The position numbers and the translations under genes were made by a program. 44,714 bases of DNA from a virus. Where the stretch lies: the IMG/VR virus record IMGVR_UViG_3300010885_050227, positions 1 through 44,714 of that record; one strand, 5' to 3'. Positions 1,144 to 31,482 of the stretch are shown in pieces. The notes below the pieces were generated by a model, which did no database searches, had not been told where the DNA came from, and was given only the letters and a program-made list of their open reading frames with translations. Every line of letters begins with the position of its first letter. Position 1 is the stretch's first letter.

Positions 1144-1214
1144 TGGCGCCGCGGTCGGTTCGCCGGCCAAGGAATGAACCCAACGTCAAACCTCCCTGCT
1201 CGCAGGCGGCGCCA
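1144..1214 (+). ncRNA. Candidate structured RNA upstream of terL
   Basis: Immediately after the stop of the preceding gene, 1144-1152 (TGGCGCCGC) is the exact complement of 1206-1214 (GCGGCGCCA), giving a 9-bp closing stem. Inside it, 1153-1168 folds as a 6-bp hairpin with one G-U pair and a UUCG loop, directly abutting the closing stem. A short hairpin at 1196-1205 (CTG-CTCG-CAG) abuts the other side. The remaining linker (1169-1195) is purine-rich and unpaired. This looks like a three-way junction, such as a cis-regulatory leader or small phage RNA. It is not a tRNA: no T-arm or anticodon stem fits. Function is not known. Confidence 0.4.
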
Positions 1215-1295: not shown

Positions 1296-2723
1296 ATGGC
1301 GCCCGGCAAGACGATCAAGTACACCGGGGCGAACCTCTACCCGAAGCAGCGCGCGGCGATCTATGACCCCGCCCGTTTGGTGACAATCGAGGCCGGAACT
1401 AAATGCGGGAAGACGATCGGCTGTCTTTCTTGGCTCCTCGAGCAGGCTCTTCTCGGGGGTAGCGAGGGGAGAAACTACTGGTGGGTCGCTCCGGTGTTCG
1501 GCCAGGCCGGGATCGGCTACCGGCGCATGAAGATGAAGATCCCGCGAGGTCTCTACAAGGCGAACGAGTCGAAGCTCACGATCACGCTCGCGAACGGTGC
1601 GATCATCTGGTTCAAGTCTGCCGAGCGACCAGACGACCTCTACGGCGAGGATGTGTACGCCGTCGTGATGGACGAGGCCTCGCGCATGAGGGAGGACGCC
1701 TGGGTCGCGGTGCGCTCGACGCTCACGTTCACCCGCGGTCCGGTTCGGATGATCGGGAACGTGAAGGGGAAGAAGAACTTCTTCTACCTACTCGCCCGAG
1801 AGGCCGAGCGCGGCGAGTCCCCCGACATGGCGCACCACCGGATCACCGCGTGGGATGCCGTCGAGGCGGGGGTGCTTGACCGTGCCGAGATCGAGTCCGC
1901 CTACCGCGACCTGAAGCGCCTCGGCCGCGAGGGCACGTTCAACCAGCTGTATCTCGCGGAGGCGTCGGACGATGGCGACAACCCGTTCGGGATCGAAGCG
2001 ATCGACATGTGCGTCGTCGACAAGCTCTCGACGGAGTATCCGAAGGCGGCCGGCGTCGACGTGGCTGGGCGCGGTGCTCAGAATCAGGCGGAGTCGTCGG
2101 AGGACTCGATCCAGGAGCGCGACTTCACCGCGATCGTGATGCTCGACAAGGAGGGGTACACGACGCATCTGTCGCGCTTCCAGATGGGCCCGGCTGACAC
2201 GGCGACGGAGATCGCCCGGGTCGTGAAGGGCACGATGGCGCTCGTCGACTCAACGGGGGCCGGGGACGCGGTGGTCGAGGCGTTGCAGCGGCGCGGAACG
2301 ATGCGCGTCGAGGGGTTCACGTTCACGGAGCGCTCCCGGCAGGACTTGCTCGAGGGGCTCGCGGTCGCGATCGGCGATGGGACGGTGCACTTCCCGGACG
2401 GGTGGATGCGTGACGAGCTCGACTCGTTCGAGTTCCGCTACACCGCTCGCGGCGTGCGATGGGTGGTGCCGAGCGGCTATCACGACGACGGTGTGATGGC
2501 GCTCGCGCTCGCGGTGAGGAAGCTCCCGAAGCGGAAAGGTGCCGGTCGGGCGCCGCTCGGGGTTCCGAAGCCAGCGGGGTCGGCGTGGCAAACTGACGAG
2601 GCGGCGGGCGGCAATCCTCTGCTCGGCGGTGCGCAGACGCCGGACACGACCTCGCCGCCGAAGACGACTGTGCCGATGCCAATCGTGATCGGTGGCGGAG
2701 GTGGTTCTCGGTGGGACATGTGA
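1296..2723 (+). CDS. terL: Terminase large subunit
   Basis: A 475-residue DNA-packaging motor and headful or cos nuclease acting at the portal. The ATPase half has a Walker A variant AGTKCGKT (about residues 33-40), a substrate-sensing region with adenine-proximal YPKQ near residue 17, and Walker B with catalytic glutamate in YAVVMDEAS (about 123-131). The RNase H-like nuclease half shows acidic residues in VDVAGRG (about 248-254), DFTAIV, VDSTGAGD (about 316-323) and HDDGVMALALA near 395. All are typical of TerL. The last 70 residues are a low-complexity Gly/Pro/Thr tail. The start is ATG 1296, without a ribosome binding site. No clear small terminase was identified. Confidence 0.95.
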   Translation: MAPGKTIKYTGANLYPKQRAAIYDPARLVTIEAGTKCGKTIGCLSWLLEQALLGGSEGRNYWWVAPVFGQAGIGYRRMKMKIPRGLYKANESKLTITLANGAIIWFKSAERPDDLYGEDVYAVVMDEASRMREDAWVAVRSTLTFTRGPVRMIGNVKGKKNFFYLLAREAERGESPDMAHHRITAWDAVEAGVLDRAEIESAYRDLKRLGREGTFNQLYLAEASDDGDNPFGIEAIDMCVVDKLSTEYPKAAGVDVAGRGAQNQAESSEDSIQERDFTAIVMLDKEGYTTHLSRFQMGPADTATEIARVVKGTMALVDSTGAGDAVVEALQRRGTMRVEGFTFTERSRQDLLEGLAVAIGDGTVHFPDGWMRDELDSFEFRYTARGVRWVVPSGYHDDGVMALALAVRKLPKRKGAGRAPLGVPKPAGSAWQTDEAAGGNPLLGGAQTPDTTSPPKTTVPMPIVIGGGGGSRWDM

Positions 2724-2730
2724 TAGCTTT

Positions 2731-2754
2731 TCGCTCGTTGGGTTCATCGAGCGA
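2731..2754 (+). other. Hairpin between terL and the sugar-transfer island
   Basis: TCGCTCG (2731-2737) is complementary to CGAGCGA (2748-2754) around a 10-nt loop, just after the terL stop. The ribosome binding site GGGAGG (2755-2760) of the next gene follows directly. There is no T-run, so termination is unlikely. A processing site or modulation of the next start is possible. Confidence 0.35.
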
Positions 2755-2766
2755 GGGAGGTTGCGC

Positions 2767-3336
2767 ATGCCTTTGAGGATCGTCTGCTGTTACCGCGATG
2801 AGAGCCACATCGACCCGCGCGCCAAGGAGGCTCTGGTCACTGCGATTAGCGGCCTAGATGTGGATGTGATCCTTCATCCCGTCGGGGACTCTCCGTTCGC
2901 CTACGGGGAATGGCTCGACTACCACTGGTCGATGTGCTCCAGGGGCAGTCAGTCGCTCGCGATCGTCGAGCCGGACATCGTGGTGCGCCCTGACGTGATC
3001 GACGCGTTCCTAAACCGGCCTGATCCCTACGTGTGTTTCCCCTACGCTCTGCTGACCGAGGTCGCGCCCGCGCTCGGCTGCACCCGGTTCAGCAACGAGT
3101 TCATCCGCGAACATCCGACCCTGATCGACGAGGCGGTCGCGATGAACGTGTCATGGCGGCAACTGGACGTGGTGATCCAGCGGAAGCTGCTCGTCGGGAA
3201 GTACGGCATTCAGCCATTGGTGTTGCTCCCGCCGGTCGAGCATCTGAACCCCGCGAAGGCGCTGCTCCCCGACGCCGACCCGACCCCGGTGATGGGCATC
3301 CCGGACATGTTCGGGAACCTCGAGGTGCTCGCGTGA
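2767..3336 (+). CDS. Glycosyltransferase-like protein, 189 aa
   Basis: First gene of the island. Its start at ATG 2767 has a strong GGGAGG 6 nt upstream. A central SLAIVEPDIVVRPDVIDAF stretch followed by PYVCFPYAL resembles the nucleotide-sugar pocket region of compact GT-A-like proteins common in actinophages. There an acidic pair replaces DxD, and a later GCTRFS segment and a C-terminal HLNP are typical. From sequence I see one domain and no membrane segment. Probable role: sugar transfer to a virion or host component. Donor and acceptor are unknown, and catalytic activity is inferred only from this resemblance and from neighbours. It overlaps the next gene by 4 nt. Confidence 0.65.
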   Translation: MPLRIVCCYRDESHIDPRAKEALVTAISGLDVDVILHPVGDSPFAYGEWLDYHWSMCSRGSQSLAIVEPDIVVRPDVIDAFLNRPDPYVCFPYALLTEVAPALGCTRFSNEFIREHPTLIDEAVAMNVSWRQLDVVIQRKLLVGKYGIQPLVLLPPVEHLNPAKALLPDADPTPVMGIPDMFGNLEVLA

Positions 3337-3548
3337 ACACTTGGGGAGACGGTCTTTGCTTGCACCGCATCATGGTGAAGAAGGATGTCTCGGGTGTGCG
3401 CGCGCTGATCGAACAGCGCCTCCACGTCGCGACTACCGTCGAGGACATCGACCCTCACTATGGGACGGCCATCGACTTCCTCGCTCCCCCCGACGTCGAC
3501 CTCGACTTCCTGCGCCCGGACGTACTTCCGCCGAAGGGTGCCGCGTGA
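3333..3548 (+). CDS. Hypothetical protein in sugar-transfer island, 71 aa
   Basis: Starts at GTG 3333 in a GTGA overlap with the previous stop and ends in a GTGA overlap with the next glycosyltransferase. It is a short soluble, acidic protein with a cluster of aspartates in PPDVDLDFLRPDVLPP near the C-terminus. No family is recognised. Tight coupling with glycosyltransferases on both sides suggests a partner or accessory protein, but nothing in the sequence shows it. Confidence 0.6.
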   Translation: MNTWGDGLCLHRIMVKKDVSGVRALIEQRLHVATTVEDIDPHYGTAIDFLAPPDVDLDFLRPDVLPPKGAA

Positions 3549-4204
3549 GCCGCATCGCGATCACGATCCCGACGATCGGGCGCGAGTCCCTCCGAGAGGC
3601 GGTGCAGTCGCTCGTCCCGCAACTCGCCGACGGTGACCGCGTGATGGTCGTGTGCGACGACATGACCCGCTACGACTTCTGCTCCGACACCGTCGCGGAC
3701 GCCCGAGAGGCCGCCGCCGACGGGGTGATGTGGCGCACCTACCCGACGGACAAGCCGCGCGGGGCGTTCGGGCACGCGGGGCGGAATATGGCGCTCGACA
3801 TGTTGCTCGAGTTGGAGGACGCGCCCTCATGGTCGTGGTCGATCGACGACGACGACATCGCGACCCCGTGGGCGCTCGAGAAGATCCGCGCGGCGACCCT
3901 GACCGGGGACTCGCCCTGGTACGTGTTCCGCATGGTCGGCGGCGCCGGGTCGCACTACCCGGGGCTGAAGCTCCCGAATCAGGGGCCCGTGATTCGCGCC
4001 GGGAACGTCGGAACGCCGATGCTCGTGTTCCCTGTCTGCGACGCACGCTGGGGCACCACGTCGGTCGACACGAACCTCGGCTCTCAGCCGGACGGCTACT
4101 TCGGCGACTACCAGATGGCAATCTCGCTCACGGACGAGCTCGGCCAGCCGGGATGGGTCGACTCGACGGTGTGCGAGGTGCGACCGAAGGCGGAGGAGGC
4201 ATGA
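3545..4204 (+). CDS. GT2-type glycosyltransferase
   Basis: A 219-residue GT-A fold protein. It opens with ITIPTIGRESLREAVQSL, the typical first beta strand and helix of family 2 transferases, where the nucleotide sugar docks. VVCDD follows, and then the metal-binding acidic cluster SIDDDDIATPWALEKI (about residues 99-114). The latter half (GNVGTPMLVFP, then YFGDYQ) matches the acceptor side, where an aspartate in DYQ could be the catalytic base. Starts at GTG 3545 coupled to the previous gene. It probably transfers a sugar from a nucleotide donor in the cytoplasm; specificity is unknown. Confidence 0.8.
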   Translation: MSRIAITIPTIGRESLREAVQSLVPQLADGDRVMVVCDDMTRYDFCSDTVADAREAAADGVMWRTYPTDKPRGAFGHAGRNMALDMLLELEDAPSWSWSIDDDDIATPWALEKIRAATLTGDSPWYVFRMVGGAGSHYPGLKLPNQGPVIRAGNVGTPMLVFPVCDARWGTTSVDTNLGSQPDGYFGDYQMAISLTDELGQPGWVDSTVCEVRPKAEEA

Positions 4205-5028
4205 CCCGCGCGATCGTCTTCTCCCGCAACCGCCCGGCGCAACTCGACCTGCTGCTCCGATCGCTCAAGCGGCACGCCGCCGACTGGATCGACGAGATCG
4301 TCGTGCTGTACCACTCGACCACCGCGGACTTCGAAATGGGCTACGCGCTCTGTCGCCTGGGTCACGAGAGCGAGAGCATCTCGTTCGTTGAGGAGTACGA
4401 CTTCGCTGGACAGATGCTCGACATCGTCACCGGGGAGAATCTCGACCTCGTGGTGCCGTTCTGCGACGACGACGTGATGTTCGCACCCGTGCCATCCACC
4501 GACGTCGAGCCGTACGACATCCTCCGCTTCGACGCCGACCTCCTGTGCGTCTCGCTGCGCCTCGGGCGAAACACCACCGAGTGCTACTCCCTGCGGCGCC
4601 CGCAGCAGTTCCCGGGATCCCTGGCGTGGCCGTACGCCGCCGCGACGGGTGACTTTGCCTACCCGGGGTCGCTTGACGGGCACGTCTTCCGAGTCGACGA
4701 CTTCGCGAGCCTCATCGACGGCGGCAACTGGAGCAACCCGAACGAACTCGAGGAACATCTCGCGCATGCCTGCCGCTTGCAGGCGGACAAGTGGCGGATG
4801 GCGTGCTACGACCACTCGATCCTCGTCGGCATCCCGATCAACTCGGTCACGCCGACGCACGGGTCGAACCGCCACGGCGAGCATCACCCGGTCACGACGA
4901 GCGAGCTCAATGAGCGCTTCCTGCAAGGCGCTAGGCTTTCGCTCGACACCGTCGACCCGAAACTGGTCGACGCAGCCCATGTTGAGTTCCCGCTTCGGTG
5001 GGAGGAAGCGAAGGAGGACGGCACTTGA
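4201..5028 (+). CDS. Glycosyltransferase-like protein, 275 aa
   Basis: ATG 4201 overlaps the previous stop. The N-terminus (AIVFSRNRPAQLDLLLRSL) is the start of a GT-A fold. An aspartate-rich metal site appears as VVPFCDDDVMF (about residues 91-101). The C-terminal half carries DHSILVGIPINSV and a conserved-looking HGSNRHGEHH segment, features seen in phage proteins of this type. Length is normal for a single-domain GT-A enzyme. Sugar donor and target are not predictable. The gene lies in an unbroken overlap chain, so stoichiometric co-expression with the neighbouring transferases is likely. Confidence 0.75.
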   Translation: MTRAIVFSRNRPAQLDLLLRSLKRHAADWIDEIVVLYHSTTADFEMGYALCRLGHESESISFVEEYDFAGQMLDIVTGENLDLVVPFCDDDVMFAPVPSTDVEPYDILRFDADLLCVSLRLGRNTTECYSLRRPQQFPGSLAWPYAAATGDFAYPGSLDGHVFRVDDFASLIDGGNWSNPNELEEHLAHACRLQADKWRMACYDHSILVGIPINSVTPTHGSNRHGEHHPVTTSELNERFLQGARLSLDTVDPKLVDAAHVEFPLRWEEAKEDGT

Positions 5029-5804
5029 GCGACACACGGAGAACGGTTTGGGAATGGGCAACCTCGTACGTCGGTGATCCCGGCAGCTGGTCGAAGCGCG
5101 GGTCGCTGATCCACGACTTCCTGATCGAGGCCGGGATGACCGCGCAGAGCAAGGTGCTGAACATCGGCTGCGGGAACCTCTCCGAGGGAGCCCCGATCAT
5201 CCGCACGCTCGAGCCTGACCACTTCGTCGGGGTCGAGCCGAACGGCTGGCTCGTCGAGGCCGCCCTCGACCACGAGCGTGACCTCGCCCACAAGAGCCCG
5301 CGCTTCCTCTGGCGCAGCGACTTCGATGCGTCCGATCTCGGCGAACGCTTCGACTTCATCGTCGGGCACAGCGTCCTCAGCCACATCGCGCACTGGCAGT
5401 TGAACCAGTTCCTCGCGAACACCCGAGCCGTCGTCGACGAGGGCGCCGCGATGCTCGCGTCGATCATCCTCGATCAGTTCAATACCTGGGATGAGCAATG
5501 GGTATACCCGGGGGTGTCGCGTTTCCGCCTGCAGACGGTGATCGCGGCCGGTCGAGAGATCGGCTGGCACGTCGAGCGCGTCGTCGAGTACCAGCACCGC
5601 ATGATCGAGGTGTGCCCGAACGACACCCACGACTGGCTTCGCTTCACCGCGATCCCGTCGTCCGCGGAGTTGAATGATCGGCGTCTCACGGAGGAGTCGT
5701 TGCAACAGGCGGAGCGCGAGATGCGCGCCCGGTACGAGAACGAGCGGCTGCAGCTTCTCGGCGCTGACGATCAGGCGCTCATGGAGAGGACGGGACTCGC
5801 GTGA
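5025..5804 (+). CDS. Class I SAM-dependent methyltransferase
   Basis: A 259-residue protein. TTG 5025 is chosen as the start because AAGGAGG (5011-5017) lies at good spacing and the TTGA overlaps the previous stop. Motif I is VLNIGCGNLSEGA (about residues 46-58). The acidic end of strand beta-2 is FVGVEPN, and motif II/III appears as FDFIVGHSVLSHI with a conserved histidine pair, as in sugar or natural-product methyltransferases. The last 60 residues are a charged helix, possibly a coiled coil. In this setting it probably methylates a sugar or the decorated acceptor, which is inference; the fold assignment is firm. Confidence 0.85.
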   Translation: MSDTRRTVWEWATSYVGDPGSWSKRGSLIHDFLIEAGMTAQSKVLNIGCGNLSEGAPIIRTLEPDHFVGVEPNGWLVEAALDHERDLAHKSPRFLWRSDFDASDLGERFDFIVGHSVLSHIAHWQLNQFLANTRAVVDEGAAMLASIILDQFNTWDEQWVYPGVSRFRLQTVIAAGREIGWHVERVVEYQHRMIEVCPNDTHDWLRFTAIPSSAELNDRRLTEESLQQAEREMRARYENERLQLLGADDQALMERTGLA

Positions 5805-6694
5805 ACCGCCTCGTCGTCTGGGGAGCCCGCGACAGCCTCGACTCGATCCGTCACGTGTGGCGGCACTATCACCAGACCGCCGCGAAGCTCGGAATCCCGA
5901 CCGTCTGGGTCGATGATCGCTCCCCGATCCCGCTCGTACCCGGCGACACCGTGCTCGCAGCCGACGTGACCGGCAAGAACCTCCGCTACTGGCCTGGGGT
6001 GAACTACGTCCTGCACAACTTCTCGGGCACCGACCAGCTGTGCGTCGACCTCGAGGCCACCCCGGAGCGCCTCCTACGCCTGCAAGTCTGGACGCATGAC
6101 GCGGTCGGGGAGGAGTGGGCGCCGTGCCGCCAGTTCGACCTCGACGCGAGGACGCTCTTCCAGCCGTGGGGCTCCGACCTCCTCGCCGAGGAGTTCCTCG
6201 AGCCGGTGTTCAACCCGCAGGCCCGCGATGTCACGTTCGTCGGGGCGATCTGGTCCGACCAGTACCAGGGCGAGGAGCTCGGGAACGAGTGGACGATCCG
6301 CGAGGTGAAGGATGTCACGTCGCGCCGCGGCCTCACGTTCCGCCATCTCACGCACATCGGGGACGAGGAGAACGCCACCGCGGTTCGCTCGGCGCGGCTC
6401 GCGCCGGCGTTCGCCGGGGCGTGGCAGTGCCGCAAGGGCTACCTTCCTTGCCGATCGTTCAAGGCAGCAGCGTACGGCGTTCTCTCGTTCGGGAACATTC
6501 CGGCAATGGAGGGTCTGCTCGGTGCCGCGTCGGTCGCGAAGGGCTCGGTCGAGGAGACGATGGATGAGGCGCTCGGACTGAACCGCACCCGGTATCTGAA
6601 CCTCGTGCGCGAGCAGCAGCGCGTCGTCGCGAACTACACCTACCGTGAGTCGCTCTCCGCGATCGAGCGGGCGTTCAAGGAGATTCAGGCGTGA
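5801..6694 (+). CDS. Probable GT-B glycosyltransferase (CgeB-like)
   Basis: A 297-residue protein starting at GTG 5801 in a GTGA overlap. The middle has a strand-turn typical of GT-B C-terminal domains (DVTFVGAIW). Later comes a donor-site-like segment, CRSFKAAAYGVLSFGNIPAMEG (about residues 221-242), where the R-x-F-E/K-A-x-A-x-G pattern resembles the nucleotide-sugar loop of CgeB-like spore-coat and phage glycosyltransferases. It ends in helices like the family's closing helix (YTYRESLSAIERAF). The assignment rests on these patterns and on context. It could also be an inactive relative. Confidence 0.6.
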   Translation: MNRLVVWGARDSLDSIRHVWRHYHQTAAKLGIPTVWVDDRSPIPLVPGDTVLAADVTGKNLRYWPGVNYVLHNFSGTDQLCVDLEATPERLLRLQVWTHDAVGEEWAPCRQFDLDARTLFQPWGSDLLAEEFLEPVFNPQARDVTFVGAIWSDQYQGEELGNEWTIREVKDVTSRRGLTFRHLTHIGDEENATAVRSARLAPAFAGAWQCRKGYLPCRSFKAAAYGVLSFGNIPAMEGLLGAASVAKGSVEETMDEALGLNRTRYLNLVREQQRVVANYTYRESLSAIERAFKEIQA

Positions 6695-7383
6695 AGACTG
6701 CGCTCGTCGCCGTCGTGACCGGCCAGGCCTACCACGACTACGCCGACAAGCTGTTCATCAGCGCTCAGGGACGGTTCAAGCCGACCGAGCGCGTCGTGAC
6801 GATGAAGGTGCCCGGACGTGAAGGTCCGTGGCCCGCCGCGACCATGTACCGCCATCACGTGATGCGCGACCTGATCAAAGGGATGCCCGACATCGACTAC
6901 TGGTTCCTTGTCGACGCCGACATGGTGATCACTGGCCCCGTCGGGCCGGAGATCCTCCCGACTGGGAAAGGCGACTATGCGCTGACCGCGACGCTGCATC
7001 CGGGGTACGTTGGGAAGCCGGAGCACGAGTTGCCGTACGAGCGACGCCTCGAGGCCGCGTCGAAGGTGCGAGAAGGCGAGGGGGCGATCTACTACTGCGG
7101 CGGGTTCTTCGGCGGCACCGCCTACGCGATGCGCCGCCTGTGCACGCTCACCGCCGACATCATCGACTTCGACGTGGATCGCGGGCTCACCCCGGCGTGG
7201 CATGACGAGAGCGCGCTCAACGCCGTGCTTGCCGCCGATCCGCCGAGCGTCACTCTCGACCCGCGGTACTGCTGCCCCGCGAACGCCGGGTGGTACAAGG
7301 CGACCGTGTGGCCGGAGGACTACTCGCTCGACGCTCGCATCACCGCGATCGACAAGGACGAGGCGACGAGGGCGGCGCGATGA
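6691..7383 (+). CDS. GT6-family (ABO blood-group-like) glycosyltransferase
   Basis: A 230-residue protein with the ordered motifs of family 6 retaining galactosyl/N-acetylgalactosaminyl transferases. WFLVDADMVI (about residues 71-80) contains the metal-binding DxD. A G-x-EIL turn follows, then ELPYERR, the IYYCGGFFGGT strand (about 130-140) and AWHDESALN (about 168-176), which in ABO enzymes binds the acceptor and contains the catalytic glutamate. Most bacterial members replace DxD by NxN, whereas this one keeps DxD. It lacks the membrane anchor of animal enzymes, as expected in phage. Probably adds alpha-Gal or GalNAc to an unknown acceptor. GTG start coupled to the upstream gene. Confidence 0.85.
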   Translation: MKTALVAVVTGQAYHDYADKLFISAQGRFKPTERVVTMKVPGREGPWPAATMYRHHVMRDLIKGMPDIDYWFLVDADMVITGPVGPEILPTGKGDYALTATLHPGYVGKPEHELPYERRLEAASKVREGEGAIYYCGGFFGGTAYAMRRLCTLTADIIDFDVDRGLTPAWHDESALNAVLAADPPSVTLDPRYCCPANAGWYKATVWPEDYSLDARITAIDKDEATRAAR

Positions 7384-7430
7384 TTGCGAAGTTTTTTCCT
7401 ACAAAAACCTTGCACGGAAAGAACGCATGA
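7380..7430 (+). CDS. Possible 16-residue minigene filling an operon gap
   Basis: ATG 7380 overlaps the GT6 stop (ATGA) and its own stop TGA 7428-7430 overlaps the ATG of the following methyltransferase (ATGA). It therefore bridges the only AT-rich gap of the island. The peptide is MIAKFFPTKTLHGKNA. The DNA contains a run of six T and a run of five A, unlike its neighbours, which could also make it slippery or a relic of a gene end. It may act by keeping ribosomes coupled. Whether the peptide itself matters is unknown. Confidence 0.35.
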   Translation: MIAKFFPTKTLHGKNA

Positions 7431-7990
7431 CCTCCGGCTCTGACTTGATCGCCAAGGCTGAGATCCCCGGCTACGGCACCGACGAGGTCGAGTTCATCGA
7501 GGAGACGCTCCTCGCTTGCCGACCGAAGTTCATCGGGGAGTGGGGAACGAACCTGGGGGCGAGCGCGCGCATCTTCCACGAGCTCTGCGTCCACCACGAG
7601 ATCCCCGCAGTCATCAACACCGTCGACCTGCCAGAAGAGCTCGAGTCGCTCGACCGCGATCACTCGGGCATCCAGACGGGCGACCTGCTCGAGGGTGTCC
7701 CTGTGTGGCGCCATCGAGGAGACGGGGTGACGGTCGCGCTCGAGATGTGGGTGCGGGCCGGGCGCCCGCCGGCGCTCTTCTTCCTCGACGGCGACCACGG
7801 CTTCGAGAACGTCTACCGCGAGCTCGTCGCGATCGCAACGGTCGCCCCGAGAGCGTGGATGTTGCTCCATGACACTCAGGGCGCCCCGGGCGCGGCGTCG
7901 CTGACGTTCGTGGGGCGGTTTCCGGGGCGCTACGACCGTGTGCACCTTCAGTCGCAGGCGGGGATGATCAGGATGGTTCCATGCCTGTGA
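7427..7990 (+). CDS. SAM-dependent methyltransferase (Methyltransf_24/TylF type)
   Basis: A 187-residue protein with GEWGTNLGASARIFHEL as the SAM-binding glycine loop (about residues 36-52). The acidic strand end is NTVDLPEEL, and FFLDGDHGFENVYREL (about 118-133) is the hallmark D-G-D-H/S motif of small O-methyltransferases and their cephalosporin-hydroxylase relatives. There a metal is bound and sugar hydroxyls are methylated. The next conserved site, LLHDTQG, agrees. GGAAAG (7416-7421) is the likely ribosome binding site. Context among glycosyltransferases suggests O-methylation of a transferred sugar (inference). It overlaps the next gene by 10 nt. Confidence 0.8.
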   Translation: MTSGSDLIAKAEIPGYGTDEVEFIEETLLACRPKFIGEWGTNLGASARIFHELCVHHEIPAVINTVDLPEELESLDRDHSGIQTGDLLEGVPVWRHRGDGVTVALEMWVRAGRPPALFFLDGDHGFENVYRELVAIATVAPRAWMLLHDTQGAPGAASLTFVGRFPGRYDRVHLQSQAGMIRMVPCL

Positions 7991-8694
7991 TCGACCTCTT
8001 TGTGATCGGGTTCAACCGCCCCGACCTCCTTCGTGAGCAGCACCGCTTGCTCTCCAAGTACATGCGGGACGAGTGGACGCTCGCGGTCGTCGACAACTCG
8101 ACCGGCACGTGGCCGGTCGTGATGGCCGACGCCGCCCGAGGGCTCGGGGTGCGCTACATGCGCTCACCTTCACCGAAGGGCGAGCATCACGAGGCGCTCA
8201 ACTTCGCCGCCCGCTGCGCGAACGAGGAGAAGAGCCGCTTCTGGGGCGTCCTCGACCACGACGTGTTCCCGTCGGCATCCTGCGATCTCGTCGAGAAGAT
8301 CAAGATCGCCGGGTTCCTCGGGCTCGGGCAGACCTACTCGCCGCGCGTCGGCGACCCGCTCCGCTACGTGTGGCCCGGATGGTGCTTCTTCTCACGCACA
8401 TGGTTGAAGGGCCGCATCCCGAACTTCGACGGGATCCGTGGCAAGTTCAAGTTCGACGACGGCGACACCGGCTCGATGCTGCACACCCTTTTCACGCCGC
8501 GCGACTGGGAGAGTCTTCCCGCGGTCGACCATGGTTACGGGACGATCCGCCCCGACGACGGGCATGGGCTTCAGAGCTTCGGTTACGAGCGCATGGACTC
8601 CTTTGTTCATTTAACAAACTCGTCGGGTTGGAAGGCGGTTCCAAATCCGCAGGAGCGCGAGCTCCTACTCCGCGCGATGGTCGCCGCTCTGTGA
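7981..8694 (+). CDS. GT2-type glycosyltransferase, 237 aa
   Basis: Starts at ATG 7981, overlapping the methyltransferase. The N-terminal strand and helix (DLFVIGFNRPDLLREQHRLL) and the VVDNSTG element are standard for family 2. The acidic metal site is probably GVLDHDVFP (about residues 90-98), where D-H-D replaces DxD. GWCFFSRTWL and the KFDDGDTGSML segment mark the acceptor side. Length is normal for a single GT-A domain. Donor and acceptor are unknown. It belongs to a cluster of clearly diverged transferases, suggesting successive steps of one glycan rather than recent duplicates. Confidence 0.7.
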   Translation: MPVIDLFVIGFNRPDLLREQHRLLSKYMRDEWTLAVVDNSTGTWPVVMADAARGLGVRYMRSPSPKGEHHEALNFAARCANEEKSRFWGVLDHDVFPSASCDLVEKIKIAGFLGLGQTYSPRVGDPLRYVWPGWCFFSRTWLKGRIPNFDGIRGKFKFDDGDTGSMLHTLFTPRDWESLPAVDHGYGTIRPDDGHGLQSFGYERMDSFVHLTNSSGWKAVPNPQERELLLRAMVAAL

Positions 8695-9656
8695 CCCTGA
8701 CCATCTTCACGGCCACGTACAACCGCCTGGAGACCCTCGAGCGCACCCTCCGCAGCTTCCGTAATCTCCGCACCCCGCACGAGGTCTGCATCGTCGACAA
8801 CGGCACCGACGACCCCGCCTGCATCCGCTTCCTCGACCAACTCGAGAAGAAGGTGAAGAAGGTCTACCGGCTCCCGCGCTGCATCCACATGGACGAGGTG
8901 CAGGCGAACTACGACATCGCCTTGCGCGACCAGTACGAGACCGGGGACGCGGAATGGTTCGCCGTGAACGACTGCGACGTCTGCTTCGAGGGGTCGCACC
9001 CAAAGACACTCGACGCGTACATCCGCCTCGCGAAGGAGACGGGGCGCTCCGTCGGGCCGCACCTTCGCGTCGACGGGGCGATCCCGGTCGGCTACCCGCT
9101 GCGCTCCCGGGTGCTCGCCTGTGAGACGTGGATGCTGTACCGCTCCGACATGGAGTGGCTCGACGACATCCCGTTCTCAAGCGTCCAGATCGACACGACG
9201 TTCCACCTGTTCACCCCGCGCCGATCGTTCGACCGCCTCCACATGGACCCCTACCGCGTCGGGCCACCGTACGACGCGATGCACCTCGACTGGTACATCG
9301 ACGTGACGCAGCCAGCGAGGGAGGATCGTCTTCTGATCCCGAACGAGCGACCGATGGGTTCGTGGGGGAAGAAATGGATCAGCGCCTACTGGTCCGACTT
9401 TCAGGTCAACCCCGAGTTCGCTTTTGAGCGACTGATGGCCGAGCCTACAGACCCCCACCACGATCTGTGCAACGTGAGCTTCACCCGGGCGTGGGCGTAC
9501 CAGTATGGTCACGGCGTGCAGGCCAACCGCGAGGCCTCCGAGGAGCATCTGGCGGCGGCGATCCCCTACCCGAACGAGCGCTACTGGCTGCGTGCGGGAG
9601 ATTGGAGCAGGATGATCTACAACAACAACTTCTCGGCTCTCGGGTGGGCGGCGTGA
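8691..9656 (+). CDS. GT2-type glycosyltransferase, 321 aa
   Basis: GTG 8691 overlaps the previous stop. The start (TIFTATYNRLETLERTLRSF) is a textbook GT2 N-terminus. VCIVDNGTDD carries the nucleotide-contacting acidic residues, and WFAVNDCDVCFEGSHP (about residues 88-103) contains the DxD-like N-D-C-D metal site. A long C-terminal portion, rich in aromatic residues (WYIDVTQ, WGKKWISAYWSDF), exceeds a minimal GT-A domain by about 80 residues and may bind the acceptor. The assignment to a GT-A transferase is secure; specificity is not predictable. Confidence 0.8.
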   Translation: MTLTIFTATYNRLETLERTLRSFRNLRTPHEVCIVDNGTDDPACIRFLDQLEKKVKKVYRLPRCIHMDEVQANYDIALRDQYETGDAEWFAVNDCDVCFEGSHPKTLDAYIRLAKETGRSVGPHLRVDGAIPVGYPLRSRVLACETWMLYRSDMEWLDDIPFSSVQIDTTFHLFTPRRSFDRLHMDPYRVGPPYDAMHLDWYIDVTQPAREDRLLIPNERPMGSWGKKWISAYWSDFQVNPEFAFERLMAEPTDPHHDLCNVSFTRAWAYQYGHGVQANREASEEHLAAAIPYPNERYWLRAGDWSRMIYNNNFSALGWAA

Positions 9657-9847
9657 GTACCCTGATGGAACAACTCGACAAGGAGCGCGAAGGGCGCATC
9701 CATGCGCTGCGCCTGCTCGCGGTGCTCGTCGAGCGCGCCGGCGGAGAGGTGCGCATCACCCGCGAAGAGCTCGGCCATGACCGCGAGATTTCACAGAGCG
9801 AGATCGGGATCACCGGGGTGCTCGTGCTCAAGGCGGAGAAGAAGTGA
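9653..9847 (+). CDS. Hypothetical protein, 64 aa
   Basis: Starts at GTG 9653 (GTGA overlap) and ends overlapping the GTG of the next transferase. It is a charged helical N-terminus (MEQLDKEREGRIHALRLLAV) followed by a small beta-like part (GEVRITREEL, then GVLVLKAEKK). This resembles short phage proteins of unknown role that occur in many actinophage genomes. It is not a transferase. A regulatory or chaperone role would be guesswork. Confidence 0.6.
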   Translation: MSTLMEQLDKEREGRIHALRLLAVLVERAGGEVRITREELGHDREISQSEIGITGVLVLKAEKK

Positions 9848-10554
9848 CCCCCGCTGGCGTCACGGTCTGCATCACGACCCACAAGGAGCCGTACGAGATC
9901 CTGAGTCGCGCCGTCGCTTCGGTGCATGCGCAGACAGTCCAGCCGCTCGAGATCCTCGTCATCGACGACGGCGGGCACATGACGAAGGAGGACGAGCAGA
10001 GCCTCGACACCGAAGGCGTGAAGGTGATCCGCATCACAAACCGAGGCCTCGCCGCCGCCCGAAACACCGCACTCATGCTCGCCAAAGGCCGCGCGTTCCT
10101 CCCTCTCGACGCGGATGACTGGCTCGACCCGACCTACATCGAAAAGACGCTCCCGCTGCTCACCGGGGAGGTCGGCGCCGTCCTCACAGGACTGCAAGAG
10201 CACGGACCGGTCCGTAACGGCACCTACCTGCCCGGGTACGACATGCACTTCAACCTCGTCACCGTAGAGCACCTCTGGACGACGAACCGCTTCTACTACT
10301 GCTCCCTCTACGACACCGAGCTCCTGCGAGAGGTCGGTGGGTGGAACCCACTCATGGCGGGGCCGTGGAATCAGGGCGGCGGTTACGAGGACTGGGATCT
10401 CTGGATCGACTTCCTGAAGCGCGGCGTGAAGCTCGACGCCGTGCTCGAGCCGCTTCTCAACTACTCAACCGAGTCGACGACCTCGATGGTGCACCGCGCG
10501 GCGCAGAATCGAGATGCGCTCCTGTCTGAGATGAAGCGTCATCACCGCGGTTGA
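9844..10554 (+). CDS. GT2-type glycosyltransferase (canonical GT-A)
   Basis: The clearest family 2 member of the island, 236 residues. VCITTHKEPYEILSRAVASV starts the Rossmann-like domain, and LEILVIDDGG holds the nucleotide-binding aspartates. ITNRGLAAARNTAL is the conserved donor loop, and LPLDADDWLDPTYIEK (about residues 86-101) contains the D-x-D-D metal site. GGYEDWDLWIDFLKRG near residue 180 is the catalytic-base ED-x-D motif. GTG 9844 is coupled to the previous gene. It ends the island, and a non-coding gap with a hairpin and a promoter-like sequence follows. Confidence 0.9.
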   Translation: MTPAGVTVCITTHKEPYEILSRAVASVHAQTVQPLEILVIDDGGHMTKEDEQSLDTEGVKVIRITNRGLAAARNTALMLAKGRAFLPLDADDWLDPTYIEKTLPLLTGEVGAVLTGLQEHGPVRNGTYLPGYDMHFNLVTVEHLWTTNRFYYCSLYDTELLREVGGWNPLMAGPWNQGGGYEDWDLWIDFLKRGVKLDAVLEPLLNYSTESTTSMVHRAAQNRDALLSEMKRHHRG

Positions 10555-10580
10555 GTGGTATGCTCCGGCTGTACGAACCT

Positions 10581-10598
10581 GGGAGTGTGACGCTTCCC
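10581..10598 (+). terminator. Hairpin in the gap after the sugar-transfer island
   Basis: GGGAGTG (10581-10587) pairs with CGCTTCCC (10591-10598) through seven pairs with one bulged T and a TGA loop. It lies 27 nt past the last glycosyltransferase stop. The downstream sequence (TTCGTGTG) has few Ts, so any termination would be weak or factor-assisted. The rest of the 10555-10689 gap holds no gene that I can support. Confidence 0.35.
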
Positions 10599-10648
10599 TT
10601 CGTGTGTTCTGACGCAATGAGCGGCCCCGCGGAACCGGGTCCGTTCGT

Positions 10649-10682
10649 TTGACAGTACGCCCGATACCCGATCTGCGATACT
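10649..10682 (+). promoter_or_regulatory. Candidate promoter of the head operon
   Basis: A perfect TTGACA (10649-10654) lies upstream of two GATA boxes, GATACC at 10663 and GATACT at 10677-10682. The latter ends 7 nt before the portal ATG, which would give a leaderless transcript. Spacing from TTGACA to GATACT is 22 nt, too long for a standard sigma-70 promoter, so the elements may belong to different promoters. The portal gene has no clear ribosome binding site, which supports a start here. Confidence 0.35.
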
Positions 10683-10689
10683 CGCCTCG

Positions 10690-12201
10690 ATGACTGGCCT
10701 TTTCAGCGAGGGCGACCTTCGCAACCCGAGCGCGAACGTGCGCCGCATGGTCGGAGACTTCGGCCCGTCCGTCGTGAACCTCGGAAAGGCCGCGTCGCCA
10801 CAGAGGCGCAACCCCCTCAGCGGGAGCGCGCTCGGCACCGAGCTCGGCCGCTCCGGCCTGCGCCACTGGGGCGGGTTCGTCTTCGAGGAGTGGCTAAACC
10901 AGCTTCAGCAGGGCCAACTTGCCGCCCAGGTGTACCGCGACATGATGGACTCCGACCCGATCGTCGGGTCGGTCATCTACGCGATCGAGATGCTGATGCG
11001 TCGCGTCACGTGGTGGGTCGAGCCGGGCGAGGTGAAGACCGCCAACGGGTCGCGTCTCGAGGCCGAGCAGGGCGCGCAGTGGTTCGAGTCCGTACGAACC
11101 GACATGCGCTACTCGTGGGCCGACACGGTCAGCGAGATTATCTCGTTCCTCGGCTACGGGTGGGGCTACAACGAGATCGTCTACAAGCAGCGCAACGGCG
11201 AGAACCCGTTCGACAAGAACGCGAACAGCGCCTACGACGACGGGACGATCGGGATCGCGAAGCTGCCGCTGCGGTCGCAGGACTCCGTCTGGAAGTGGGT
11301 GTTCGACGAGGTCGGTGAGATCGAGGGGATGATCCAGAACCCGCCGCCCGACTACACGCTCCGCTTCATTCCGGCCGAGAAGGCGCTCCACTTCCGCACC
11401 ACGATCTTCAAGAACAACCCGCTCGGTCGGTCGATCCTTCGGTCCGCATACTCGGCCTGGTACTTCGCGAAGAACATGCGCGCCATCGAAGGGATCGGTG
11501 TTGAGCGCGACCTCGCCGGACTGCCAGTGCTTCAGCCGCCGGAGGAAACGAACATCTGGGACACCTCCGATCCAGACATGGCTGGCATCGCCGCGCAGGC
11601 GAAAGCGGTCGTCTCCTCGATCCGTCGCGACGAGCAGGAGGGTGTCGTCCTCCCGTTCGGTTGGACTCTGAGCCTTCTGACAACTGGCGGATCCCGCCAG
11701 TTCGACACGGGGAAAATCATCACGCGGTACGAGACGCGTATCGCGACGAGCGTGCTCGCCGACCTCGTGATGATGGGACAGGACAAGGTCGGCTCCTACG
11801 CGCTCGCCGTCACGAAGAAGGATCTGTTCTCGGCCTCGCTCGGCGCGTACCTCGACATCATCTCGAACCAGATCAACACCGAGCTCATCCCGAAGCTGTG
11901 GCGGCTGAATGGCTTCAAGGGGCCACGGCCAAAGCTGTGCCACGGACAGGTCGAGACGATCGACCTCGACACGCTCGGGAGCTACATCATGCGCCTCGGC
12001 CAGTCCGGCGCCCCGATCGACTGGGAGACGGTGCTCCCGTGGGCGAATGACCAGGCCGGGATGCCGCAGCCACGCGATGGCCACGACTTCACGCCTCGCA
12101 ACGTCGCACAGACGGTGAGCGATAAGGGTCCCGCCGACCGCCTCGTCGCGAAGGCGCACGACCTCCATCGCTGGCGCGACCATGAATGGGAGGGATCGTG
12201 A
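10690..12201 (+). CDS. Portal protein
   Basis: A 503-residue protein forming the dodecameric ring at the capsid vertex through which DNA passes and to which TerL and the head-tail connector bind. Evidence: position after terL and before the protease/scaffold/capsid block; typical length; an N-terminal MMDSDPIVGSVIYAIEMLMRRV segment; a wing region with KALHFRTTIFKNNPLGRSILRSAY (the F-x-N-P-x-G-x-S pattern of DUF935/gp29-like portals); and a long helical C-terminus. The start ATG 10690 lies 7 nt after a -10-like GATACT, with no ribosome binding site. The assignment is strong from pattern and synteny. Confidence 0.9.
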   Translation: MTGLFSEGDLRNPSANVRRMVGDFGPSVVNLGKAASPQRRNPLSGSALGTELGRSGLRHWGGFVFEEWLNQLQQGQLAAQVYRDMMDSDPIVGSVIYAIEMLMRRVTWWVEPGEVKTANGSRLEAEQGAQWFESVRTDMRYSWADTVSEIISFLGYGWGYNEIVYKQRNGENPFDKNANSAYDDGTIGIAKLPLRSQDSVWKWVFDEVGEIEGMIQNPPPDYTLRFIPAEKALHFRTTIFKNNPLGRSILRSAYSAWYFAKNMRAIEGIGVERDLAGLPVLQPPEETNIWDTSDPDMAGIAAQAKAVVSSIRRDEQEGVVLPFGWTLSLLTTGGSRQFDTGKIITRYETRIATSVLADLVMMGQDKVGSYALAVTKKDLFSASLGAYLDIISNQINTELIPKLWRLNGFKGPRPKLCHGQVETIDLDTLGSYIMRLGQSGAPIDWETVLPWANDQAGMPQPRDGHDFTPRNVAQTVSDKGPADRLVAKAHDLHRWRDHEWEGS

Positions 12202-13769
12202 AGTGGCCGTACTCGACGCTCGAGGCTGGAACGACGATCCCAGACTTCCAGCATCCCGGGCCGGTGGCCGTACTCACCCCTGACGACGTTCTCGCGCTCG
12301 GTCAGAGCATCGCAGAGATCGAGCCGGCGTTCCCCGCGAACCTCGAGAGCTCGCCACTCGAGCGTCTCGACGAGATGAGTTACGGGTTGATGAAGGATCA
12401 GGCGGACATCGCGCCGCTCCCGCATGACAGCCGCGCCGAGCTCGTGCGCTTCTGGGCGGAGCATCCCGACATGCGCCAGGAGTGCACCGCGAACTACGGG
12501 CACGACCCGGTCGAGCGCGAGGCTGACTACTGGCGCTTCGGGATCGCCGAGCCGGAGCACGCCGATGTGCTCGATGCGATCAAAGCGAACGGCGGACTGT
12601 TCACCCTCGACCTCGTGAAGCGGTGGGAGGCGCAGGAGATCGCCGAGGCGTCGGTCGAGAAGGCCGCCATCATCGCGGCGGGGATCGCGGTGCGCGCCGC
12701 CGACACCGGCCGCGTCCTGATGATCCAGCGTGCCGCCAATCCCACCGATCCCGCCTCTGGCACGTGGGAGTTCCCGGGCGGGCTCCTCGAGGCCGACGAG
12801 CATCCCCTCGACGCCGCGCGGCGCGAGTTCCGGGAGGAGATGGGCATCCGCCTCCCGAAGGGCAGGCACGCCGGCCAGTGGCGCTCCGCCGTCTATCAGG
12901 GATTCGTGCACGAGGTGAAGCGCGAGAAGACCGTGAAGTTGAACACCCCGAGCGACTCGCGGCGCGTGAAGAACCCGGACGACCCGGATGGCGACAACGC
13001 CGAGGTCGCCGCATGGTGGCACCCCGAGCAGCTGCGCCGCATGAGCGCGCTTCGGCCTGAGCTCCGTCAGAGCAAGGCGTGGACGCAGGTTGAGAAGGCG
13101 GGCGCCCCGGGCCTCGCGGGGCGCATCCCGCCCGCCGGCGACGAGGGCACTGATGAGAACTACCCGGATGAGATGACGCTCGACAAGATGGAGGCCGCCG
13201 CCGCGGCGGGAACCTCTGGCGGATCGGGACCCTCGGCGTCGAGCGTTCACGTGAACAAGCCGCTGAAGAACGTGTCGCAGGGCTACATGCAGGGGCCGAA
13301 GCCGCGGAAGCGCGGCGGGAAGCCGGTGCTCGTCGGCGAGTTCCTGCCAGTCACGAAGGCCGGGAAGATGAAGCAGTTGGTGTACGGCGTAGTGCTCGAG
13401 CCGAACAGCTTCGACAGTCAGGACGACTTCATGCTGCCCCACCACGTCGAGGAGACCGCGCACGGCTACCTGAAGAAGGCGATCCGTGGGCAGTCGTCAG
13501 TCGCAAAGCTCCAGCATCGCGGGGTCGGCTTCCGGAAGGATCGTCCGTCGATCGTCCCGGTCGAGTCGTTCATCGCGCCGTGTGATTTCACGCCAGAAGG
13601 CGGCACCGAGATGATCAAGAAGGGCTCGTGGGTGATGTGCATGCACGTCGAGGACTCCGCGCTCTGGCAGGACTTCCTCGACGGCAAGTACCAGGCGTTC
13701 AGCGTCGGTGGCACGGGTGTGCGACAGTCCTTGCACTCCCCGATCGACATCTCCGCATACGCGGACTGA
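12198..13769 (+). CDS. Nudix domain fused to XkdF-like prohead protease
   Basis: A 523-residue multidomain protein. After an N-terminal helical part (about residues 1-150), a Nudix fold contains a perfect Nudix box: GGLLEADE, then ARREFREEMGI (about 194-217). This family hydrolyses nucleoside diphosphates linked to another moiety. A low-complexity linker leads to VHVNKPLKNVSQGYMQ (about 350-365), almost a copy of the major capsid protein arm. The C-terminal domain (about 380-523; MKQLVYGVVLEPNSFDSQ, then GSWVMCMHVED, then AFSVGGTG) matches the XkdF putative phage serine protease family. GTG 12198 (GTGA overlap, GGGAGG upstream) is preferred over ATG 12186. Head maturation is likely; the Nudix role is unknown. 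Confidence 0.85.
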   Translation: MKWPYSTLEAGTTIPDFQHPGPVAVLTPDDVLALGQSIAEIEPAFPANLESSPLERLDEMSYGLMKDQADIAPLPHDSRAELVRFWAEHPDMRQECTANYGHDPVEREADYWRFGIAEPEHADVLDAIKANGGLFTLDLVKRWEAQEIAEASVEKAAIIAAGIAVRAADTGRVLMIQRAANPTDPASGTWEFPGGLLEADEHPLDAARREFREEMGIRLPKGRHAGQWRSAVYQGFVHEVKREKTVKLNTPSDSRRVKNPDDPDGDNAEVAAWWHPEQLRRMSALRPELRQSKAWTQVEKAGAPGLAGRIPPAGDEGTDENYPDEMTLDKMEAAAAAGTSGGSGPSASSVHVNKPLKNVSQGYMQGPKPRKRGGKPVLVGEFLPVTKAGKMKQLVYGVVLEPNSFDSQDDFMLPHHVEETAHGYLKKAIRGQSSVAKLQHRGVGFRKDRPSIVPVESFIAPCDFTPEGGTEMIKKGSWVMCMHVEDSALWQDFLDGKYQAFSVGGTGVRQSLHSPIDISAYAD

Positions 13770-30773: not shown

Positions 30774-30804
30774 GCGACCATCTTCCGTGATAGGGTTCTG
30801 ACCG

Positions 30805-31482
30805 ATGCCTCCGAAGAAGGACATCCGCAAGGCGATGGTGAAGCTGATGGAGCTCACCATCGCCGACGAGCAAACGCACGGCAACTGGACGTACGCCGCC
30901 GTTCGTCCGCTTGAGACTCCGGAGCGCCCGTGGGTTCCCGGTGTGCACCGTCGAGGCGACTGCTCGAAGGGCGGCCAGTGGATCGCGTACTGGGCTGGAG
31001 CCCCCGATCCGTTCGGGATGGACTTCGGGCCGTACGGTAACTCGCAGACCGCATGGTCGAACCTTCAGCACCTAGACCACGCGAGCGAACTTCTCCCGGG
31101 CGACATGATCACGTTCGGGCGCGACGGGCAGAAGCACCTCTCGGTCGTTCAGGAGGCCGGCGCCGATCCGCTCCTCTGGTCGTGGGGGCATCAGGGGGCG
31201 CCGAACAACTACCGACTGTCTCAGGACTCGCGGGAGCGCCAGTTCCTTCGCATGCCGATCGCCGCCTACGTGCCGACGCCGGAAGACAAACTCCGCGCGA
31301 AGACCGGGTGGTTCGCGTGGATGCAGTGGGCGCTCGGCGAGGGCGACTGGAAGGGGCATCCGAAGAGCGCGAAGGGCGTGCGTCCGAATGTGCCTCGTCC
31401 GATCCCGGTTTCATGGTGGAAGCGTCGAGCGATGTTCCTTCTGCGCCGCAAGCGCGGGAACCGCCCCACCACAAAGAAGTAA
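30805..31482 (+). CDS. Endolysin, NlpC/P60-CHAP-like peptidase
   Basis: 225 residues. The catalytic-like cysteine lies in HRRGDCSKGGQWIAYWAG (about residues 48-65; cysteine about 53). A histidine-bearing strand MITFGRDGQKHLSVVQEA (His about 112) follows, and then LLWSWGHQGAP, a pattern seen in actinophage peptidoglycan peptidases. It has no signal peptide, so it needs a holin. The C-terminus is very basic (WWKRRAMFLLRRKRG) and may bind the wall or membrane. A TAGGGT box ends 8 nt before ATG 30805 and no ribosome binding site is visible, suggesting a leaderless message. Adjacent to three holin candidates. Confidence 0.75.
   Translation: MPPKKDIRKAMVKLMELTIADEQTHGNWTYAAVRPLETPERPWVPGVHRRGDCSKGGQWIAYWAGAPDPFGMDFGPYGNSQTAWSNLQHLDHASELLPGDMITFGRDGQKHLSVVQEAGADPLLWSWGHQGAPNNYRLSQDSRERQFLRMPIAAYVPTPEDKLRAKTGWFAWMQWALGEGDWKGHPKSAKGVRPNVPRPIPVSWWKRRAMFLLRRKRGNRPTTKK

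Follow-up and report, generated by a model that had tools for sequence, protein, structure and literature searches.

Described structured RNAs and the candidate terL leader RNA

The packaging motor of phage phi29 includes an RNA, the pRNA, which is bound to its portal and ATPase. The element examined here, a candidate phage RNA, shares with the phi29 pRNA a junction and a connection to the gene of a packaging ATPase, but this connection is positional only for the element, contact with the packaging motor is a known feature of the pRNA, and no Rfam match joins the two. One published report likewise presents the phi29 pRNA as a phage RNA tied to the packaging motor (PMC6765105). Structured leaders at the 5' ends of bacterial and phage mRNAs are also like the element, in that a promoter-like site and a start codon enclose a compact junction; the element differs from the cis-regulatory leaders in Rfam in that it matches none of their families and is represented by two examples only. 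A closing stem with several arms is common to the element and to tRNAs or tRNA-like RNAs, but the element has no T arm, and in agreement with the original prediction that it is not a tRNA, ARAGORN finds no tRNA or tmRNA in the window. (The window is the whole stretch of viral DNA that was analysed, the 44,714 nucleotides of IMG/VR record IMGVR_UViG_3300010885_050227.)

Rfam 15 gave no match at the gathering score anywhere in the window, two chance-level matches only around the element at E values up to 5, and no match for the corresponding leader of the relative G014, described below. Thus the suggestion that the element might belong with reported terminase-leader motifs found no support in Rfam, for either the window or the G014 leader, or in those parts of the literature that the search covered.

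The intergenic region upstream of terL

The element occupies positions 1144-1214 and falls, as had been proposed, between a stop codon (1141-1143, the end of the ORF at 910-1143) and the terminase gene, which starts with ATG at 1296 and has no clear Shine-Dalgarno site. The features of this region are as follows.

1119-1127, + strand: TGCTACGCT, extended -10-like site (TGnTAnnnT motif), predicted transcription start near 1134
1134-1222, + strand: folded RNA, predicted extent including a basal extension (fold prediction; z -2.0 for 1134-1221)
1144-1152, + strand: P1, 5' strand (fold; the bases differ in G014 and are still paired)
1153-1168, + strand: P2 hairpin, 6 bp with a UUCG loop (fold; 6 bp with a UCAC loop in G014)
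1170-1193, + strand: P3, with AGG/CCU, an A-rich internal loop, UGA/UCA and the loop ACCCAACG (fold, linker alignment)
1196-1205, + strand: P4, 3-bp hairpin (fold; not in G014)
1206-1214, + strand: P1, 3' strand (fold, sequence)
1251-1272, + strand: G+C-rich hairpin, 9 bp with a GAAA loop, without a T run (fold)
1280-1287, + strand: TGTAAACT, second -10-like site, with the first base of TAAACT 14 nt upstream of the terL ATG
1296-2723, + strand: terL, 475 aa (PHROG phrog_2, terminase large subunit, E 4e-33)

The G+C content of the window genome is 65%. We considered a coding origin for 1144-1295 and rejected it on codon-position G+C, which is 0.64-0.70 with no bias in any frame; since this bias is absent, the stretch is probably noncoding. 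Searches for DNA similarity in the phage collection yielded no match for 900-2723, and the matches to 1119-1300, in 8 records, were short pieces at chance level, the best with an E value of about 2. No relatives were found with the gene at 910-1143 as the query.

Predicted fold of the element

The helices of the original prediction are borne out: 1144-1152 (UGGCGCCGC) is perfectly complementary to 1206-1214 (GCGGCGCCA) over nine consecutive pairs, and the UUCG hairpin at 1153-1168 and the short hairpin at 1196-1205 form 6 bp and 3 bp, respectively. The stretch between these two hairpins (1169-1195) had been described as a purine-rich linker; it is not simply single-stranded, as in the minimum-energy fold it contains the pairs of P3, AGG 1170-1172 with CCU 1191-1193 and UGA 1175-1177 with UCA 1186-1188. 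The window element is therefore predicted to form a four-way P1-P2-P3-P4 junction, and the three-way junction that had been proposed applies instead to G014, which has no P4. The basal extension is predicted to pair 1134-1136 with 1220-1222 and 1138-1140 with 1216-1218. P1 includes the palindrome GGCGCC. A pseudoknot between the loop sequence CCAACG and CGTTGG (about 1233-1238) appeared possible by eye in the window; it was rejected because visual inspection of about the first 60 nt of G014 terL showed no counterpart to CGTTGG.

The fold alone is ordinary for a genome of 65% G+C. The window element has a z-score of -2.0, with 7 of 200 shuffled sequences folding as well, and the scores with flanks included are -1.4 and -0.8. 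When the window was scanned with 44,644 windows of 71 nt (every 2 nt, both strands), 3.8% of them equalled or exceeded the stability of the element. Junctions closed by at least 8 bp accounted for 45 rows in these 71-nt windows, which manual merging reduced to 31 distinct places, 30 of them besides the element. Because the fold alone is not unusual, the case that the element is more than chance depends on one relative, G014. The downstream region 1250-1300, which includes the GAAA hairpin, scores z -3.4, with one of 200 shuffles equally good.

A similar element in one of four relatives

Relatives were sought by TerL, MCP and portal scans of IMG/VR and by searches of the 37 records behind the loci. 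Among these scans and records, terL genes of the clade of the window occur only in G014 (58% TerL identity to the window), G008/G013 (55%, near-identical to each other), and G046 and G048 (59% each); the remaining TerL relatives found are more distant.

The G014 element resembles that of the window in fold, strand and position, as it also lies between a -10-like site and terL, with 4 nt from the end of the P1 helix to the terL AUG. Its P1 is formed by GCGGGGCGGC/GCCGCCCCGC, its P2 by GCAGCC-UCAC-GGCUGC, and its P3 by AGG-ACA-ACU-CCAACAA-AGU-GA-CCU. This fold has a z-score of -5.4, and none of 200 shuffles is equally good. Candidate compensatory base changes, of the kind by which the original prediction was to be judged, are present in G014, in this comparison of two sequences only: P1, P2 and inner P3 (UGA/UCA in the window, ACU/AGU in G014) are changed on both sides with pairing kept. 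What the two elements have in common in sequence is AGGA, the outer AGG/CCU pairs of P3, CCAAC and ACCTCC; the CC directly 3' of P3 completes the last of these, so that both elements read AGGA..CCAAC..ACCTCC, and P4 is missing in G014. An ORF of G014 with a plausible start runs through the element and overlaps the start of terL, and the sequence of the G014 element could for that reason be partly coding. The element is absent from the other three of the four terL-bearing relatives, and we tentatively suppose that the RNA arose, or survives, in only part of the clade of the window.

Searches for the shared fold

A fold descriptor without sequence constraints fits the 200-nt leader of G014, none of the leaders of the three other relatives, and 7 of 40,000 shuffled leaders (2, 3, 2 and 0 per 10,000 for the four relatives), rates that are optimistic as the ranges were chosen after both elements were known. 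None of the shuffled leaders that fit the descriptor also reached equal P3 similarity. Over 5.98 Mb strand-bases of loci, which are redundant, the descriptor reported 33 rows, 12 of which are the two elements and the others 18 distinct places after manual merging.

Covariance models built from a single element fail to distinguish the other element from noise. The model built from the window alone scores the G014 element at 11.1 bits (E 0.59), which ranks it 7th of 22 in 13.2 kb; across 100 sources (0.94 Mb, including L240, the terL locus of G014) only the window itself rises above noise with this model, and the G014 element is unlisted at E values up to 5. The reverse model, built from G014 only, places the window element at E 6.8 (rank 29 of 42). 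Only when the searches are limited to the leaders are the E values lower, 0.061 in 401 bases and 0.01 in 232 bases; at E up to 0.03 the window element is missing from the output of the reverse model. Local alignment of window and G014 does not exceed shuffled sequences for either the elements (p 0.87) or the leaders (p 0.80); for the 27-nt linkers, the alignment has p 0.02.

Among 79 distinct terL upstream regions, gathered from the loci by a terL anchor and counting those of the window and G014, only these two carry the P3 motif in its setting; a further regular-expression match, in L004 near the terL motif, looks incidental. A complete scan of IMG/VR for the exact pattern yielded 28 stretches; fold prediction was applied to all of them, and the fold is present only around that of G014. 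A looser pattern yielded at least 119 stretches, and among the best 45 of its 121 rows we found no instance of the fold besides the copies of the window and G014. These searches yielded no third member from IMG/VR or Rfam.

Promoter-like sites and transcription units

The -10-like site at 1119-1127 ends 16 nt 5' of P1, within the last codons of the ORF at 910-1143. The + strand of the window has five TGnTAnnnT motifs (1119, 2721, 10556, 27954 and 30788), and the - strand has one; the 2721 site overlaps the end of terL, the 27954 site is inside a gene, and the 10556 and 30788 sites are in gaps before genes. The narrower pattern TG.?TA[CT].CT has two matches on the + strand of the window, none on its - strand, and a single one in the 7.3 kb that surround G014 terL. 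Similar sites precede terL in some relatives: the 11-mer TGCTACGCTCC of the window site is identical in G046, where the terL GTG follows 7 nt after TACGCT; TGGTACATT is seen by eye 6 nt ahead of the terL GTG in G048; and TGTATCCT is immediately 5' of the element in G014. The window element sits between two promoter-like sites, and in G014 one such site is seen. No classical sigma-70 -35/-10 pair was found, and a search of 850-1400 for intrinsic terminators, defined by a T run after a G+C-rich stem, gave none.

In actinobacteria, leaderless starts have a -10-like site at about 14-nt spacing, and the 1280-1287 site represents a possible leaderless arrangement for terL. At gene 30805 (30788-30805), as at terL (1280-1296), TAnnnT begins 14 nt upstream of the ATG, and at the portal gene (10670-10690) GATACT is found 7 nt upstream of the ATG; in several relatives, GATACT or GATAGT is seen by eye 7-10 nt ahead of the portal start. 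The sequence ahead of terL, gene 30805 and portal suggests leaderless transcripts at the starts of these units. The region 10556-10690 holds a second TGnTAyGCTCC site, separated from portal by ~130 nt of noncoding leader with a fold (z -1.2) that is not unusual. About 130-150 nt upstream of terL are the near-palindromes GTAACTAGTTAC (in G048, locus L325) and GTAACAAGTTAC (in G046, locus L326), which are maybe an operator.

Possible function and alternative explanations

We tentatively favor the interpretation that the element is a small, lineage-restricted structured RNA that heads the terL unit and acts in cis as its leader. A cis-regulatory role is possible, and the RNA element itself may be real, with its function deduced and with two examples too few for certainty. 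What the analysis shows directly is the sequence, the predicted fold, the counterpart in G014 and the motif counts; transcription, the folded state in cells and the regulation of terL are what we infer. The RNA would be made from the -10-like site at 1119-1127 as its own promoter and would stand first in the terL transcription unit. It would fold into the closing helix P1, the tetraloop hairpin P2 and P3, an asymmetric hairpin with CCAAC in its loop. As a 5' leader, it would hold translation of terL, a gene without a clear Shine-Dalgarno site, low on transcripts from the upstream promoter. The window terL might also be read from the site at 1280-1287, a possible leaderless promoter, so that the leader would keep weak expression by read-through apart from direct expression of terL.

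A substantial, if somewhat doubtful, competitor is a chance fold, in which the junction reflects inverted repeats of a G+C-rich intergenic region and the likeness to G014 is a coincidence helped by targeted looking. The 30 comparable junctions elsewhere in the window, the weak z-scores of the window element with and without flanks, the nonsignificant plain alignment of window and G014, the failure of the one-sequence models to set G014 apart and the match in only 2 of the 79 upstream regions are all as this explanation would predict, but so low a rate of descriptor fits among shuffled leaders, the z-score of -5.4 in G014 and the recurrence there of the same place, strand and flanking -10-like site are not. 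Should the element instead prove genuine, it would be a structured RNA, so far unlisted, that heads a packaging gene of uncultured phages, and one gene would then have both a structured leader and a leaderless start stacked ahead of it. The cis-leader interpretation provides a specific hypothesis for the timing of terminase expression, at present for a two-sequence candidate.

Since the 1280-1287 site could give terL without the leader, it is also possible that the product is an independent, trans-acting small RNA that runs from 1134 to the GAAA hairpin at 1251-1272, with terL expressed from its own leaderless promoter. The two -10-like sites that flank the RNA in the window and the strong hairpin agree with this idea, as does ACCUCC, which could pair with Shine-Dalgarno-like sequences; we consider it unlikely, as the T run is absent in the window and the 4 nt between the G014 element and terL hold no second -10-like site or hairpin. 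It is very improbable that the feature is a DNA-level element, either a terminase recognition or packaging site or a set of protein-binding inverted repeats, to which the RNA fold is incidental. Packaging sites are often adjacent to terminase genes, and P1 has its GGCGCC palindrome, but in G014 P2 and P3 stay paired although their bases differ, and the two elements have little sequence in common; an RNA suits kept pairing with so little shared sequence better than a DNA recognition site does. We give least credence of all to an undescribed phage RNA gene, flanked by a promoter of its own and by a terL that is leaderless. The product of this gene would work with the terminase, for example by binding TerL or portal, instead of just regulating the terminase mRNA; if this were true, there would be a further RNA tied to the packaging motor besides that of phi29.

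Other genes in the window

No small terminase was recognised in the window. About 8 kb with other genes (2692-10554) extend from terL to portal, and these genes include a methyltransferase and glycosyltransferases, one of family 6 and two of family 2. A single protein encoded at 12186-13769 combines a NUDIX domain with an XkdF-like phage protease domain. Near the left end, 34-249 encodes a 71-aa helix-turn-helix protein with a match to Sigma70 region 4 just above the cut-off.
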